Assembly: GCA_003141415.1 (NCBI GenBank)
Contig: PLLX01000181.1
Span: 3,034-44,885, forward strand
From: Bacteroidales bacterium
GTDB taxonomy: Bacteria > Bacteroidota > Bacteroidia > Bacteroidales > VadinHA17
Length of the DNA: 41,852 nucleotides
Reading direction: 5' to 3'
Shown here piece after piece: positions 9,159 through 20,620 of this stretch; within the stretch, counting starts at the first letter, position 1, and each line of letters begins with the position of its first letter. A program made the position numbers and the translations under genes. Under the pieces are notes generated by a model. It did not search any database and was not told where the DNA came from. It was given only the letters and a program-made list of their open reading frames with translations.

Positions 9159-10631
9159 TCATTCCCGTTCCCACTCTGCCCCCTCTTTCAGATCCTTTAA
9201 TACTACCCCTGCACTTTTCAATTCAGTTCGTATTTTATCTGAGGTGGGCCAGTCTTTATTATTTTTTGCTGCCTGTCTTAAATCAATAATAATCTTCATC
9301 AGGTCACCTGTCAGCTTTTCATTACCTATCGAGGCAGATTCATCTTTTAATCCAAGAATCTCAAACACAAATGTGCTGAAAAGCGCTTTTAATGATTCAT
9401 GACCTGGAACATCAATTTTTTCTGTTCCGTCAATAACTGAATTGACAATTCTCACTCCTTCAAAAAGATGAGACAATAACATAGGGCTATTAAGATCATC
9501 ATCGAGTGCCTCATAGCATTTTTCTTTCAGTTTGATGACATCAATTGTTGAATTATCTGATGGCTTTAGTTTGTCAAGAGACTCTACAGCTTTCATCAGT
9601 TTCTGGAAACCTTTTTCAGCTGCCTGAAGAGCCTCATTGGAGAAATCAATGGTGCTGCGATAATGAGCCTGCAGGATGAAAAACCTGATGGTCATTGGCG
9701 AATAGGCCTGAACTAATAAAGGATGATCACCTGTGAAAAGCTGATCGAGCGTAATAAAATTGCCAAGTGAGCGGGCCATCTTCTGACCATTGATGGTGAT
9801 CATATTATTATGCATCCAGTAATGAACTGTTTCTTTACCGAGTGCAGCAGTTGACTGGGCTATCTCGCATTCATGATGAGGAAACATAAGATCCATTCCA
9901 CCTCCGTGAATATCAAACTCTTCACCAAGATATTTGATACTCATGGCAGAACATTCCAGGTGCCATCCGGGGAAACCATCACTCCATGGAGATGGCCATC
10001 TCATAAGGTGTTCAGGGCTGGCCTTTTTCCAGACAGCAAAATCGAATGGATTTCGTTTTTCATCACGGCCTTCGATATCACGGGTGTTACTGATGAGGTC
10101 ATCTAAAACTCTTCCTGAAAGTTTACCATATTGATATTTCTGATTATATTTTAATATATCAAAATATACGGAGCCGTTTGATTCGTAAGCATATCCGCTC
10201 TTAATCAGCACTTTAATGAGTTCAATCTGTTCGATTATATGTCCGCTTGCTCTTGGTTCAATTGAAGGGGACAGCGTATTAAGCTGATCCATGTTTTTAT
10301 GGTATGTATTCACATATTTCTGCACAACCTCCATGGGTTCTATCTGTTCCTGTCTCGCTTTCTTTTCAATACGATCTTCTCCTTCTCCAAGGGTCTCATT
10401 TTCAAGATGTCCAACATCTGTTATGTTTCTGACATATCGTACTTTATACCCAAGATGTGTCAGATAGCGGAACAGCAAATCGAATGTTATTGCAGGGCGT
10501 GCATGCCCCAGATGGGCATGACTGTAGACGGTAGGACCGCATACATAGATACCAACAAATGGCAGGTGAATCGGGATGAAAAGTTCTTTCTTCTTCGAAA
10601 GGGTGTTATAGATGAAAAGGTTGTTCTGCAT
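9159..10631 (-). CDS. cysS: Cysteinyl-tRNA synthetase
   Basis: 490 aa; [63 protein letters not shown] (KMSKS-like). Confidence 0.98.
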
Positions 10632-11144: not shown

Positions 11145-11175
11145 TTTGTATTTTAAAAAATACTTTTTACCTTTG
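11145..11175 (+). promoter_or_regulatory. Bacteroidota-type promoter (-33 TTTG / -7 TACCTTTG)
   Basis: TTTG at 11145-11148, 19-bp spacer, TACCTTTG at 11168-11175; lies just upstream of the riboswitch. Confidence 0.6.
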
Positions 11176-11218
11176 ACCCCACAAATCAAATATTCCTTCC
11201 TTTAAAGGGTGTTTGGTT

Positions 11219-11344: not shown

Positions 11345-11413
11345 ATGAATTCAATTCATTTAACACACAACAACTTTATCATGCCGCTCATGCCTATGTG
11401 CATGTGCCGGTAA
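11345..11413 (+). CDS. Putative Met/Cys-rich leader peptide (uORF)
   Basis: ATG..TAA encodes MNSIHLTHNNFIMPLMPMCMCR (22 aa, 5 Met and 2 Cys, 4 of the Met in the last 10 residues) between riboswitch and metY. Confidence 0.5.
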   Translation: MNSIHLTHNNFIMPLMPMCMCR

Positions 11414-11512
11414 TAGCTTTGATTTGCAATCAGTCATTTTCTCAGTTAACAACCGGAAATCCTTGAGAGATACCTGTATCTGTCTGTCCGGTATTGATAA
11501 AATTTAAAATAA

Positions 11513-12823
<1,311 letters not shown>

Positions 12824-12825
12824 AA

Positions 12826-14079
12826 ATGACACAGGAAAAATTAAGAATTGGTTTATTCGGCTACGGCTGCGTTGGTCAGGGACTACACGATGTGCTGAAC
12901 AGCAGTAAAGGGTTCAAAGCCGATATTGTGAAGATTTGTGTTAAAGATCGCACAAAAATGAGAAGGATCCCAATGACAAACTTTACATTCGATAAAAATG
13001 ATATCCTGAATGATTCTTCAATCAATCTTGTTGTTGAGTTAATTGATGACGCAGATGAAGCATTCAATATAGTTACAACTGCGATGAGAAGCGGGAAAAA
13101 TGTTGTGACTGCCAATAAGATGATGGTGGCCAAACATTTTAAGGAGCTGGTTGAGATGCAGTCAAAGTATAAAGTATCCCTACTCTATGAGGCCTCGGCA
13201 GGAGCAAGTATTCCAATTATACGGAATCTCGAGGAATATTACGATAATGAACTTCTGTACTCTTTGCGTGGAATTCTTAACGGAACCACAAATTATATCC
13301 TCACAAAAATGCATAATGAGGGATTACCCTATGCGGAAGCATTGAAAGAAGCACAGGAAAAAGGTTTTGCAGAATCCGATCCGACTCTTGATGTTGAAGG
13401 CTGGGATGCAAAATACAAACTTTGTATAATTACCGGTCATGCATACGGGCTGTTTCTTGAACCGGAACAAGTCTTTCATTATGGGATCAATACAATTTCA
13501 AAATTTGATATCCAGTATGCAAAAGAAAAAGGCTTTAAGATTAAGCTGGTACCATTTGTCGGCAAGACAAATGAGAACACAATAACCAGTTTCGTTCTTC
13601 CGCGGTTTATTTCTTCCGATAAATATCTCTATAATGTAGATAATGAATATAATGGAGTAATTACAGAGGCAGCGTTTGCTGATAAACAATTTTTCAGTGG
13701 AAAAGGAGCGGGTGGTCATGCAACGGGTAGCGCAGTATTGTCGGACATATCCGCGAACTCATATGGTTACAGGTATGAATATAAAAAGTTTCAGCAGGGA
13801 ACAGTATCTAAATACACCCGCGACTTTAAACTGGAGGTATACTTAAGGTATAATGATGAAAAGGATAAGGAATTATTTGGATTTGAAGAAGTGTCGGAAT
13901 ACTTTAGCGGGAGATTTTATAAGTATGTCATCGGAGTGGTGAATCTTGAAAGACTTTACAGTTTAAGGGAACAACTTCGAAATCTGGATGTTTTTATAGT
14001 GAATACCGGAAGAAAAATCAACCCCCCAACTCTCCAAATGGGGGTAGAACATAAGGAAAGAGATCAAAATTTAGGATAA
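12826..14079 (+). CDS. hom: Homoserine dehydrogenase
   Basis: 417 aa; GLFGYGCVGQGL, VVTANKMMVAKH, YEASAGASIPIIR, GILNGTTNYILTKM, EAQEKGFAESDPTLDVEGWDAKYKL. Confidence 0.95.
   Translation: MTQEKLRIGLFGYGCVGQGLHDVLNSSKGFKADIVKICVKDRTKMRRIPMTNFTFDKNDILNDSSINLVVELIDDADEAFNIVTTAMRSGKNVVTANKMMVAKHFKELVEMQSKYKVSLLYEASAGASIPIIRNLEEYYDNELLYSLRGILNGTTNYILTKMHNEGLPYAEALKEAQEKGFAESDPTLDVEGWDAKYKLCIITGHAYGLFLEPEQVFHYGINTISKFDIQYAKEKGFKIKLVPFVGKTNENTITSFVLPRFISSDKYLYNVDNEYNGVITEAAFADKQFFSGKGAGGHATGSAVLSDISANSYGYRYEYKKFQQGTVSKYTRDFKLEVYLRYNDEKDKELFGFEEVSEYFSGRFYKYVIGVVNLERLYSLREQLRNLDVFIVNTGRKINPPTLQMGVEHKERDQNLG
14020..14047. repeat. GC-rich palindromic repeat overlapping the hom 3' end
   Basis: aaccccccaactctccaaatgggggtagaa resembles the intergenic repeats at 20621-20650 (aaccccccaacctctcatatggggggtag). 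Confidence 0.65.
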
Positions 14080-14129: not shown

Positions 14130-17100
14130 TTGAAACAAAAACTTGAAGATATAATTCAGCAAAAGATCCTCATCCTCGATGGAGCGATGGGTACCATGAT
14201 CCAGAAGCACAGACTTCTGGAAAATGATTACCGTGGTAATGAGTTCAGAGATCATCCAAAGCTCCAGAAAGGGAATAACGATCTTCTGTCTATCACGAAA
14301 CCAGAAATAATTAAAGGAATACACCGGCAATATCTTGAAGCAGGTGCAGATATAATTACAACAAACACATTCAATTCAAACAGGATCTCCATGTCGGATT
14401 ATGGAATGGAGGACCAGGTTTATAATTTTAACCTTCAGTCGGCTCATCTGGCTGCTGAAGCAATTACTGAATTTGAAAATTCCAATGAACCGGAAGAGCA
14501 TTTTATAGCAGGAACCCTGGGCCCAACAAACCGCACTGCTTCAATGTCTTCAGATGTCAATGATCCGGGTGCCAGAGCTATATCTTTTGATGAACTGGTT
14601 TATGCTTATTCTGAGCAAGCCCGCGGGCTCATTGATGGCGGTGTAAATATCCTTCTTGTTGAGACAATATTTGATGTTCTGAACTGCAAGGCTGCTTTAT
14701 TCGCAATTGATTCGGTGTTTGAGGAAAAAGGGATAACCCTTCCTGTTATGGTATCAGGTACAATTACTGATGCAAGCGGGAGGACATTAACGGGTCAGAC
14801 TCTCGAAGCATTCATGGTATCTGTTTCACATTTTCCTCTCTTCAGCATAGGACTGAACTGCGCCCTTGGCGCTGAACAGCTGCGCCCATTTGTTGAAGAA
14901 TTATCACTGAAGTCGGAGTTTTATGTTTCGGTCCATCCAAATGCCGGCCTTCCAAACCAGTTTGGCGAATATGATCAGACAGCATCATTTATGTCCTTAA
15001 TTGCAGAGGATTTTATGAAAGAGGGATGGGTTAACATTATCGGAGGCTGTTGCGGTACAACTCCTCAGCATATCCGGAAAATTGCGGAGGCATCAGTACA
15101 CTATAAACCAAGAGTAAAGCCTGAAATTAAGAAATATACCAGGCTCAGTGGTCTTGAGGTTCTGACAATTACACCTGAGACCAACTTTGTGAATATAGGT
15201 GAACGGACCAATGTATCAGGATCAATAAAATTTGCAAGACTTATAAGGGAAGAAAAATATGATGAGGCACTCGCAATTGCACGGAACCAGGTTGAAGGAG
15301 GAGCGCAGATAATTGATATTTGCATGGATGAAGCTATGCTTGATTCGGAAAAAGCAATGGTGAGGTTTGTTAATCTTATCATGGCAGAGCCTGATATCTC
15401 AAAGCTTCCGCTGATGATTGATTCTTCGCGCTGGAATACGATCGAATCAGCACTTAAATGTATACAGGGGAAATCAATTGTAAATTCTATCAGCCTGAAG
15501 GAAGGTGAAAAGGTCTTTCTTGAACATGCCCGCACACTAAGGAAATATGGGGCTGCTGCCGTAGTCATGTTATTTGACGAATCCGGTCAGGCTGACACAT
15601 TGGCAAAAAGAATCAGTGTTGCTGAAAGATGTTATCGCCTTCTTGTTGACAAACTGGCATTCCCGCCTGAAGATATAATATTCGATCCTAATGTACTGGC
15701 TATAGCAACCGGGATTGAAGAACATAATAACTATGCAATAGATTTCATTAAAACGACAGAATGGATTAAGCAGAACCTTCCTTATGCCAGAGTGAGCGGT
15801 GGAATAAGCAATCTCTCATTTTCATTCCGTGGTACTGACAAAGTTCGCGAAGCAATACATTCAGTCTTTCTGTTTTATGCCATTAAAGCCGGACTGGATA
15901 TGGGTATTGTTAATCCTGGTATGTTGCAGGTTTACACTGAAATACAGCCTGACCTTCTTCACCTTATTGAAGATGTTGTGCTTAACAGGAGAAAAGATTC
16001 CACTGAAAGACTTGTGAAGTTTGCTGAAGGTATAAAGAACGAAGGAAAGAAAGAGGAGAAGGAGGATGCCTGGCGTCAGCTCGGGGTTATTGATCGTATT
16101 AAGCATTCTCTGATCAGGGGTCTCGATGAATTTATTGAAAAAGATGTTGAGGAGGCCAGGCCTCTTTTCAGCCGGTCAATTGAGCTGATTGAAGGGCCCT
16201 TAATGGGAGGGATGAATGAAGTAGGAGATCTTTTCGGATCAGGTAAGATGTTCCTTCCGCAGGTTGTAAAGAGCGCCAGGGTGATGAAAAAGGCAGTTTC
16301 AAAGCTTGCTCCATATATTGAAAAAGAGAGTGAAGGACAGGCGAAAAAAATTGCAGGGAAAGTTCTTCTTGCGACTGTCAAAGGAGATGTTCATGATATC
16401 GGAAAGAATATCGTTGGTGTTGTATTGTCATGTAACAACTATGAGATAATTGATCTTGGAGTTATGGTACCGGCTGAAAAGATCATTGATATCGCTATTA
16501 ACGAAAAAGTTGATATTATAGGTCTAAGCGGATTGATAACCCCGTCTCTCGAGGAGATGGTTCATGTTGCTTCAGAAATGGAACGGAGAAAAATCACACT
16601 CCCCCTGCTTATTGGAGGGGCTACAACTTCCGAGATCCATGCCGCTGTAAAAGTCGCACCGGCATATTCAAATAGCGTTATTCATGTTAAAGATGCTTCA
16701 AAGGCAGCAGGAGTTCTCTCATCACTGCTTCAGAAAGACAACAGTACTTATGTTGCGTCAGTAAAAGCAAAGTATAAAAAGATGCGGGAGGATCATAGTT
16801 CGCGTCAGACAATAAGGAATCTTCTTTCATTAAAAGAAGCCAGGGGGAACAAATACTTTACTGACTGGCAAACTATTAAGCTTTTTGAACCGGAAAAACC
16901 AGGGCTTCATATTTTCCACGATATTGATCTTAATGTACTTAAGAGTTATATCGATTGGACATACTTTTTCTTTGCGTGGAAGTTATCGGGTAAATACCCT
17001 GGAATTTTCAGTGATCCGGTAAAAGGTGCTGAGGCAAAGAAGTTGTTTGATGATGCACAAATGTATCTGAAGAAAGTTATTGATCAAAAGCTTCTTACAG

Positions 17101-17780
17101 CTAAAGCTGTTTTTGGATTATTCCCCGCGGTTTCTGATGGTGATGATGTTAAGGTCTTTTCGGATAAAAGTAAAAAGAAGTTAAAATTTGTTTTCAGGTT
17201 TTTAAGGAACCAGGAGCCAAAAGAAAAAGGTGTTCCCAATCTCTCTCTGTCCGATTATGTTGCTCCGGAAGGAGCCGGACCGGATGATTGGATAGGGGCT
17301 TTTGTAGTCACAGCAGATATTGATAATGATGCGTTTAGAAAGTATAAAGAAGATGATTATGCTACAATTATGATCAGGATACTCAGTGATCGTCTTGCTG
17401 AGGCTGCAGCTGAATGGCTTCATGAAAAGATACGGAGAGAATACTGGGGTTATGCAAAACATGAGAATCTTACTATTGATGAGATGCTTAAACTGAAGTA
17501 CAAGGGTATAAGACCGGCTCCGGGTTACCCTGCCTGTCCCGATCATACGGAAAAACAGGTTATTTTTGATCTTCTGGGAGCAGAAAAAGCGATAGGTGCC
17601 GCACTCACCGAAAACTTTGCTATGATGCCACCGGCATCAGTAAGCGGGTATATTTTTTCACATCCCGGATCGACATATTTTAATTTAGGAAAGATAAACT
17701 CTGATCAGTTGAAAGATTATGCAAAAAGGAAGAATTTTACAAACGATGAAGCTGCAAAATGGCTCTCTCCAAATTTATGA
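14130..17780 (+). CDS. metH: Cobalamin-dependent methionine synthase
   Basis: 1216 aa; [32 protein letters not shown], cobalamin motif [18 protein letters not shown]-terminal AdoMet-binding activation domain. TTG start. Confidence 0.98.
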
Positions 17781-17792
17781 TATCACTCTGAA

Positions 17793-18746
17793 ATGACTGT
17801 AATAGAAAAGATTAACAACGCAAAAGGACCATTATTCACATTTGAACTCCTTCCTCCCCTGAAAGGCCATAGCATCGAGAGAACTTATGCAGCCATTGAC
17901 AGGTTAATTGAGTATCAACCAGCTTATATTAACTTCACGTCTCACCGGAATGAAACCATTTTGAGGGAAAGGCCCGATGGCCTTCTTGAGAAGAGAGTGG
18001 TTCGTCTGCGTCCCGGAACATTTGCCCTTGCAGCCGCTGTCAAATATAAGTACAACATACTTGTGGTCCCTCATGTTCTATGTGGGGGCTTTACTAAGGA
18101 GGAGACAGAGAACGTACTTATTGAGATGAGATTCCTGGGCATAGATGATGTTCTCGCATTAAGGGGTGATCCACAGAAAGGAAGCCGGGCATTTATTCCT
18201 GAGAAGAATGGTCATACTCATACATATGAACTTGTTCAGCAGATTGTTGACATGAACAAAGGTAAGTATCTTGAGGATAATCTTGAAAATGCTGATCCTA
18301 CAAATTTTTGCATTGGAGTGGCAGGTTATCCCGAGAAACATTTTGAAGCTGCTAACAGGCTGGTAGATATGGAGAACCTGAAACGGAAGGTTGATGAAGG
18401 GGCGAGTTATATTGTAACCCAAATGTTTTTTGATAATAACAGATTTTGCAGATTCAGGGACGAGTGCAGAAAGATAGGTATTGCAGTTCCGATAATACCG
18501 GGTATTAAACCCATCTCAGCGTTGAATGATATTAAGCTGCTTCCTCAGACATTTCATATAGATCTGCCAAATGATCTCTTTACTGCTGTAAAAAAATGTA
18601 AAAATGACTGTGAGGCAAGAGAGGCTGGAATAGAATGGGCCGTGGCGCAATCCAGGGAATTAATTAAGATGGGGGTTCCGGGTATCCATTATTACACCTT
18701 AGGGAGGTCTGATAATATCGCAAGGATAGTGAAATCGTCTTTCTAG
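17793..18746 (+). CDS. metF: Methylenetetrahydrofolate reductase
   Basis: 317 aa; FELLPPLKG, VLALRGDPQKG, IGVAGYPEKH, GASYIVTQMFFDNNRF, PIIPGIKPI. Confidence 0.96.
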   Translation: MTVIEKINNAKGPLFTFELLPPLKGHSIERTYAAIDRLIEYQPAYINFTSHRNETILRERPDGLLEKRVVRLRPGTFALAAAVKYKYNILVVPHVLCGGFTKEETENVLIEMRFLGIDDVLALRGDPQKGSRAFIPEKNGHTHTYELVQQIVDMNKGKYLEDNLENADPTNFCIGVAGYPEKHFEAANRLVDMENLKRKVDEGASYIVTQMFFDNNRFCRFRDECRKIGIAVPIIPGIKPISALNDIKLLPQTFHIDLPNDLFTAVKKCKNDCEAREAGIEWAVAQSRELIKMGVPGIHYYTLGRSDNIARIVKSSF

Positions 18747-19046: not shown

Positions 19047-20390
19047 TTATAATTTAAATGCCTTTTTAATTTTGTCTACATAATCCAGTTTTTCCCAGGC
19101 AAAGAATTCGACTTTTTTCTGGTAGACTTTTTTCCCGTTTCCGTTAAGAGCTTTTGGCTTACTTCCGGGAACCTCATAATAAACATTAACAGTTTTGGAA
19201 TAACTATCACGGCCAAAATGGCCATATGATGCCGTAGGAAGGAATATAGGGTTTTTCAGGCCAAAACGCTGAACAATTGAGTATGGCCGCATATCGAAAA
19301 GCTTATTTATAGTCTGTGCAATCTCTCCATCGTGAAGAATCTTTCCTTTTTTGTCTTTTACCTTTGCGGTGCCATTAGTATTTACATACAGACCAACAGG
19401 TTGAGCAACTCCAATAGCATATGCTACCTGGATCAGCGCCTGGTCGCAAACTCCTGCAGCCACCAGGTTCTTTGCAATATGACGGGCCGCATAGGCAGCT
19501 GATCTGTCAACTTTAGATGAATCCTTTCCCGAAAATGCGCCTCCTCCGTGAGCACCATGACCACCATAAGTATCAACTATGATCTTACGGCCGGTAAGTC
19601 CGGTATCCCCGTGAGGACCTCCTATTACAAATTTGCCAGTGGGATTAACCAGAAGTTTAAAATCGCTGGTAAACAATTTCTGAATTCTTGCAGGCAGTGT
19701 TTTTTTAACTCTTGGTATGAGGATTTTCTCAAGATCTTCGCCTATCTTCTGTTGCATTGCTTTTTCAGCAACCTGTTCAGCTTTGTGCGATTTGTCTTTT
19801 GGCAGTACAAATTCATCATGCTGTGTGCTTATAACTATAGTATCGATACGGAGAGGTTTGTTATTATCATCATATTCAACAGTAACCTGTGATTTACTGT
19901 CGGGTCTGAGATATTTCATCTGTTTGCCTTCATGCCGTATAGCTGCCAGTTCCTGAAGAAGCCTGTGGGCCAGCTCAATTGTTAATGGCATATAATTATC
20001 CATTTCACGGCATGCATATCCAAACATCATACCCTGGTCACCTGCTCCCTGTTCCTCAGGTTTATCGCGAACAACACCCTGATTTATGTCGTTTGATTGT
20101 TCATGTATCGTTGAGATAACACCACATGAGTCGCAATCGAAACGGTATTCGGCTTTTGTGTATCCGATATTACGGATCACACCTCTTGCGCTCTCCTGGT
20201 GATCAACCCATCCTGTAGTGCGGACTTCTCCGCCACAGACAACGAGCCCGGTTGTTACAAATGTTTCGCAGGCAACTTTTGATTCCGGATCCCATCGCAG
20301 GAATTCGTCAAGTAAAGAATCTGAGATCTGATCGGCTACCTTATCGGGGTGACCTTCTGAAACTGATTCGGAAGTAAATAAATATCCCAT
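19047..20390 (-). CDS. metK: S-adenosylmethionine synthetase
   Basis: 447 aa; [61 protein letters not shown]. Confidence 0.98.
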
Positions 20391-20620
20391 ATTAATATTA
20401 TTAATTCATTATTAAAAAAAAGATTAAGATTGGTTGATTGTAAATAAGGAATTATCCGCGGTTTAGCATTTTTTTTCCTGTGGTTGCAATCAGCACAAAT
20501 CTTTCCACTAATTTATTACGGTACAAAGCTACAAAAAAAAAGAGTATAAGGAAATTTATATACAAAAATGTTGATTTTCTTCGTTCCGCCTTTGTTTAAT
20601 CCCTCTGACTCTCCCTCTTT

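Follow-up and report, generated by a model that had tools for sequence, protein, structure and literature searches.

A leader peptide with a Met/Cys-rich tail between a SAM-I riboswitch and metY in Bacteroidota, a candidate sensor of charged tRNA in series with SAM

Leader peptides that are rich in the product or a precursor of a pathway sense charged tRNA. A SAM-I riboswitch and a T-box for tRNA-Met stand in tandem upstream of metX and metY in two examples, and this arrangement is predicted to allow expression only if low SAM coincides with uncharged tRNA-Met (PMC9481103). Polycysteine short open reading frames (ORFs) of mycobacteria were predicted in PMC1262725 and, according to the passage of PMC13236596 that cites Canestrari et al. 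2020, are cysteine-responsive attenuators. The uORFC-8-2 motif, found before cysS in Rhodobacterales, carries tandem Cys codons within a stem, and ribosome-mediated attenuation was proposed for it (PMC8632094). Leader peptides were also suggested before amino-acid biosynthesis operons of Flavobacterium psychrophilum, a member of the Bacteroidota (PMC9723704).

The leader ORF and its surroundings

The locus described here lies in a stretch of 41,852 nucleotides of Bacteroidales DNA that was analysed as a whole and is referred to as the window. It includes the following features.

11168..11175, forward strand: candidate Bacteroidota sigma-A -7 box, TACCTTTG, by comparison with the consensus TAnnTTTG as quoted in PMC9723704
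11217..11329, forward strand: SAM-I riboswitch aptamer (RF00162, 71.6 bits, E 5.8e-15)
11345..11413, forward strand: leader peptide ORF, ATG to TAA, 22 codons, encoding MNSIHLTHNNFIMPLMPMCMCR followed by the stop, with the Met/Cys codons at its 3' end
11382..11412, forward strand: predicted hairpin built from the Met/Cys codons, UGCCGCUCAUGC/GCAUGUGCCGGUA (consensus of 13 relatives by RNAalifold; MFE)
11452..11492, forward strand: second predicted hairpin, ACCGGA...UCCGGU, between leader and metY, with no U-tract after it (MFE)
11519..12823, forward strand: metY, O-acetylhomoserine sulfhydrylase, the first structural gene (TIGR01326, 635 bits; PF01053)
12826..14079, forward strand: homoserine dehydrogenase, the second gene (PF00742; PRK06349)
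14130..17780, forward strand: metH, B12-dependent methionine synthase (TIGR02082; PRK09490)
17793..18746, forward strand: probable metF, methylenetetrahydrofolate reductase, the last ORF of the run, named from its sequence

The aptamer is full length and has the sequence and structure of a SAM-I riboswitch, with 71.6 bits against a gathering score of 44.4 for RF00162; no other SAM-I was found in the assembly, whose completeness is 82%. The original prediction for this locus placed an ORF from ATG to TAA, with Met/Cys codons clustered at its end, at 11345-11413, and the ORF is there exactly as claimed. The predicted distance to metY also holds, with 105 nt from the leader stop to the metY ATG at 11519. 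The gap to the riboswitch, given as about 20 bp, had to be revised to 15 nt when the end of the Rfam aptamer is used.

Six of the last ten residues of the leader are Met or Cys (start Met excluded). No other of the 493 ATG ORFs of 10-60 amino acids in the window reaches this number, the runner-up having four, and none of 26,673 ORFs from 40 shuffled windows does so, which argues that the tail did not arise by chance. The peptide had no match at E <= 10 to Pfam and NCBIfam models, and the leaders described below would represent a recurrent small-ORF family that these models miss. The sequence that separates the -7 box from the aptamer (about 11182-11216, ACAAATCAAATATTCCTTCCTTTAAAGGGTGTTTGG) is near-identical among close relatives and might fold into a stem or act as an anti-P1 element. 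The divergent neighbour of the operon is cysS, encoding cysteinyl-tRNA synthetase (9159-10631, reverse strand).

The locus resembles the SAM-I/T-box-Met tandem in its predicted logic, in its target genes and in the pairing of SAM-I with tRNA sensing. It differs in that tRNA would be sensed by a translated leader peptide and not by T-box RNA, that Cys would be sensed as well, and that the leader seems to be the expression platform of the riboswitch; when the window was scanned against the whole of Rfam, SAM and SAM-II were the only families detected, with no T-box RNA behind the aptamer. The mycobacterial uORFs, as the cited passages present them, are likewise short ORFs that precede sulfur genes and have no obvious terminator, and they carry a Cys run close to the stop. 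However, they are leaderless, use Cys and not Met codons, precede cys genes, belong to another phylum, and are reported in those passages without a riboswitch. The window ORF does not look leaderless, as a 113-nt aptamer stands before it within that leader, and its tail contains C-M-C only and no longer Cys run, whereas Sphingobacteriaceae have CCCC near the stop. The uORFC-8-2 motif shares the uORF Cys codons within a stem and the proposed attenuation, but has a terminator U-run, no riboswitch and cysS as its target. In the ppe2 B12 riboswitch/uPPE2 system of Mycobacterium tuberculosis, as would be the case here, the riboswitch acts first on a translated uORF, through which the gene behind it is controlled; that system differs in its B12 ligand and in its termination-reinitiation at an AUGA overlap, and no amino-acid-specific codons are described for it (PMC11260477). 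F. psychrophilum is comparable in its phylum and its suggested leader peptides, but metY and riboswitches are not named in that connection in the main text of PMC9723704. Poly-Cys uORFs, SAM-I/T-box-Met tandems and riboswitch-controlled uORFs are thus known parts, and we found no description of their combination here in the openly licensed literature, neither of a Met/Cys leader behind SAM-I nor of a methionine-codon attenuator.

Coding selection and composition of the tail

A search for metY provided 80 loci from Bacteroidota genomes, and the closest of these retain the leader at the same position. The original prediction had proposed a comparison of synonymous and nonsynonymous changes, and this was carried out on 16 leaders of 22 codons each. 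The pN/pS ratio was 0.167 in the leader frame, compared with 0.67 and 3.25 in the other two frames, and none of 400 column shuffles gave a ratio as low as that of the leader frame. Judged by these substitutions, the leader ORF is under purifying selection. The expectation that frame and Met/Cys codons are conserved was borne out for the frame, in the relatives that share the leader, and for the tail Met codons, which are invariant in close relatives except for an ATG-to-ATT change at the first one in L027. It needs a correction for the Cys codons, one or both of which are often replaced by Arg and also by Trp or Tyr, as in the tails MRMCR (L034), MCMRR (L037), MCMRW (L035, L040), MRMWR (L038) and MRMYR (L027). 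In L035 the stop codon of the leader is lost and the reading frame extends three more codons.

A strict DNA pattern for MCMCR followed by a stop was searched in 395 genomes of the class, and the window was the only meaningful match. Other matches were rejected because they lie antisense to a long reading frame (L003), lack a stop after Arg and read on with TGG (L004), or stand upstream of an unrelated PhoH/PIN-like protein (L005).

Leaders were also found in Mucilaginibacter, Pedobacter, scattered Sphingobacteriaceae, Cytophagales and other Bacteroidota, where the ORF starts at a near-constant distance behind the aptamer. The N-terminal parts of these distant leaders are unrelated, and their tails are rich in Met and Cys, for example CICMCCCC, CCCMCMCCC, CMCICICC, MAMSMPGC and DCCC; tails over all leaders also include MRMQ and MSMPGC, next to MPMCMCR in the window. 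The last ten residues of 38 leaders consist of 18% Met and 30% Cys, compared with 1% and 2% in the remainder (p 4.5e-30 for Met and 1.7e-46 for Cys, the loci not being independent). Both Cys codons are used alike (TGT 54, TGC 45), which suggests that what is conserved is the amino acid, whichever triplet encodes it. The tails show a mild enrichment of Arg (p 0.004), and Arg beside Met recurs in Bacteroidales tails (MRM, RMR, MFMR), for example in L251, L252, L267, L269, L273 and L274. On this comparative evidence the leader peptide is real, selected and widespread, and a sensor built on it would read mainly Met in Bacteroidales, where the Cys codons are replaceable, and mainly Cys in Sphingobacteriaceae.

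A scan for the pattern MCCCC followed by a stop gave 13 matches, compared with one in the reversed control. Two of them are upstream of metY and one, in L238 (1304-1500 and downstream), belongs to a leader ending SICCCMCCCC that follows SAM-I and precedes an OsmC-like gene in place of metY; the remaining matches are without such context and may be due to chance. A poly-Leu reading of the Cys runs in the +2 frame was rejected, since the start codon next to the aptamer opens the Cys/Met frame. Five Algoriphagus loci (L064, L066, L067, L075 and L084) have an ORF start equally far behind the aptamer and a tail without Met/Cys; the sensor may have been lost there, or the ORF may have another role. 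An ORF in this position that lacks the Met/Cys tail is also kept in some other loci.

Association with metY and with the aptamer

A total of 130 SAM-I loci from a scan of the 395 genomes (30 fetched by search and 100 by place) were combined with the Rfam-positive metY loci and the window. Sixty-three loci with metY within 520 nt of SAM-I were termed metY-near and compared with 97 that have no metY so close, which are mostly followed by metH and also by sufS-, ahpC- and methyltransferase-like genes. The leader ORF was taken from the first ATG at +2 to +21 nt after the aptamer. Such an ORF is present in 40 of the 63 metY-near loci. At least three Met/Cys in the last ten residues were counted in 28 metY-near loci and at least four in 22, compared with means of 0.35 and 0.05 loci in dinucleotide shuffles (maximum one at the higher threshold); as many loci are related, these counts are not independent events. 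Not one of the 97 SAM-I loci without metY close behind has a Met/Cys-tailed leader. A further locus, L044, was placed in neither group; there SAM-I is followed by a leader ending MPMCMR, an aspartokinase-like gene and, further downstream, metY.

The metY search was then extended to 98 Bacteroidales genomes, one per family, from families not sampled before. Eleven of 12 SAM-I metY loci in these families have an ORF start 9-14 nt behind the aptamer. Seven of the 11 ORFs include at least two Met/Cys in the last eight residues and the other four include one, in a check that was not blind, since the Met pattern was known beforehand and the threshold of two in eight residues was set afterwards. Tails from the new families include FMDMRGMRM, MRMRPCAQ, YMRMQ, SMFMR and MPRMR.

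Two loci of the new families are without SAM-I and carry leaders ending MPMCMCCCGNHS and RMCCCKH. At a relaxed threshold, no SAM-I match was found in L036, L039, L043, L061, L093, L258 and L270, in all of which a leader is present; L039 and L036 indicate that the leader can stand without the riboswitch. The short ORFs of L043, L061 and L093 (about 400-545) are Met-rich, ending MSMYMIMR or MSMSMSCAVMCMR before the stop, and lie about 1.5 kb upstream of metY. The end of an aspartokinase-like frame immediately precedes metY in L043 and L044, and the leader may therefore head an aspartokinase-metY operon.

Terminators, hairpins and a proposed two-input gate

A canonical terminator before the gene was found in only three of 28 Met/Cys-tailed loci, all three weak, compared with 19 of 35 other metY loci and 55 of 94 other SAM-I loci. 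Terminators are thus rare with Met/Cys leaders and common without them, so that the leader seems to occupy the place of the usual terminator behind the aptamer and to be more than a mere neighbour of the riboswitch, a refinement of the original prediction. Among the marks of a leader attenuator, the window leader has coding selection and enrichment of the tail codons; no canonical intrinsic terminator was found behind it.

The hairpins vary between groups. The window region with the second hairpin is not significant alone (z -0.86), and the strands of this hairpin differ among relatives, being ACCGG/CCGGT in most and CCTG/CAGG in L026, L027 and L033. RNAalifold gave 28 pairs in the window clade, one with a double change, in sequences too similar for covariation to decide on the hairpins. 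Five Mucilaginibacter-type loci carry two hairpins directly after the stop that fold far better than shuffles (z -2.6 to -5.2), two Sphingobacterium-type loci carry one hairpin at the stop codon (z -3.9), and in Pontibacter the fold is hardly better than shuffles (z -0.55). None of the window, Mucilaginibacter-type, Sphingobacterium-type and Pontibacter loci has a U-tract after the hairpins. A clear pair of mutually exclusive terminator and antiterminator was not found, and alternative pairing is only suggestive.

According to a survey of riboswitch mechanisms, the 3' strand of P1 in SAM-I riboswitches can contain the ribosome binding site (PMC2258182). Here the leader has the nearest start codon, which suggests that P1 gates translation of the leader. 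With SAM bound, the P1 helix would be closed beside the leader start codon (15 nt away here, 2-21 nt elsewhere), ribosomes would not initiate on the leader and the operon would be off. With SAM low, P1 would open and the leader would be translated. If Met-tRNA (and Cys-tRNA) were well charged, the ribosome would reach the stop codon and downstream expression would still be attenuated; if charged tRNA were scarce, it would stall on the terminal Met/Cys codons. The stalled ribosome would alter the folding of the following hairpins or block Rho, and metY-hom-metH would be expressed. For the output step, presumably at the level of transcription, our first guess is Rho-dependent termination and our second a non-canonical terminator.

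In this gate for low SAM and uncharged Met/Cys-tRNA, the leader ORF would replace the terminator as expression platform, a reading to which we assign a probability of about two in three. The original prediction, that the operon may combine SAM sensing by RNA with Met/Cys-tRNA sensing by a ribosome, is supported by the comparative evidence: such a sensor predicts a leader that is translated, selected, Met/Cys-tailed, tied to metY and mostly right behind SAM-I. Such a control by Met/Cys-tRNA, acting in series with the sensing of SAM, would be the best explanation. The arrangement recurs in many Bacteroidota, which therefore probably gauge both SAM and charged Met/Cys tRNA. Whether there is a Bacteroidota-wide class of SAM-I without a terminator of its own, in which the translated Met/Cys leader is the platform and the aptamer decides whether the tRNA-charging sensor is read, we regard as an even bet. 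It might explain the working of those SAM-I riboswitches of Bacteroidota that lack a terminator. If the gate is true, two inputs are read within one leader, and Bacteroidota join a metabolite riboswitch to ribosome-based tRNA sensing, another route to the logic predicted for the SAM-I/T-box-Met tandems. It would be, to our knowledge, the first leader-peptide attenuator on methionine codons.

The leader could instead be translated and selected as a mere relay of the riboswitch, in which SAM blocks initiation, translation keeps Rho off or couples to metY, and the Met/Cys codons are no tRNA sensor. The tight spacing between aptamer and ATG and the missing terminator would fit such a relay, and the B12 riboswitch of M. 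tuberculosis ppe2 does control a translated uORF that is required for PPE2 expression (PMC11260477). However, a relay explains neither the Met/Cys-rich tails nor the leaders without a riboswitch, and we consider it unlikely.

Classical translational attenuation, in which stalling exposes a sequestered metY start site, has a parallel in the mycobacterial cysteine-responsive attenuators, which are so described in the passage of PMC13236596 that cites them. It is distinctly improbable at these loci, since the predicted accessibility of metY from -20 to +10 is 0.5-0.83 and nearly constant over ribosome positions in 13 loci. Sequestration of the metY start was accordingly rejected, the start being predicted open wherever the ribosome sits.

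A slightly less probable alternative is arrest of the ribosome by the nascent peptide, whose Met and Cys residues would bind an oxidant, Cu(I) or some other thiophilic metal; the signal would then be metal or thiol stress and not tRNA charging. Runs of the kinds M-x-M, C-x-C and CCCC are able to bind such metals, and the leader before the OsmC-like gene would suit this explanation. It is opposed by the association with metY and methionine genes, by the replacement of Cys by Arg in Bacteroidales, and by the position of the runs at the extreme C-terminus, where they would still sit inside the exit tunnel. The tail codons of the window clade do form a stable, conserved predicted hairpin and part of their conservation may be at the RNA level, but a conserved hairpin with an incidental ORF is hardly credible given the in-frame pN/pS, the unrelated sequences that encode the same composition elsewhere and the free third positions of the Cys codons.

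In the window, a SAM-II riboswitch (20453-20514, reverse strand; RF01726, 53 bits) also lies directly upstream of a gene (19047-20390, reverse strand) that reads from its sequence as metK, SAM synthetase. A survey in 2007 reported no single species with both SAM-I and SAM-II (PMC2258182). The two riboswitches of the window are 9 kb apart.
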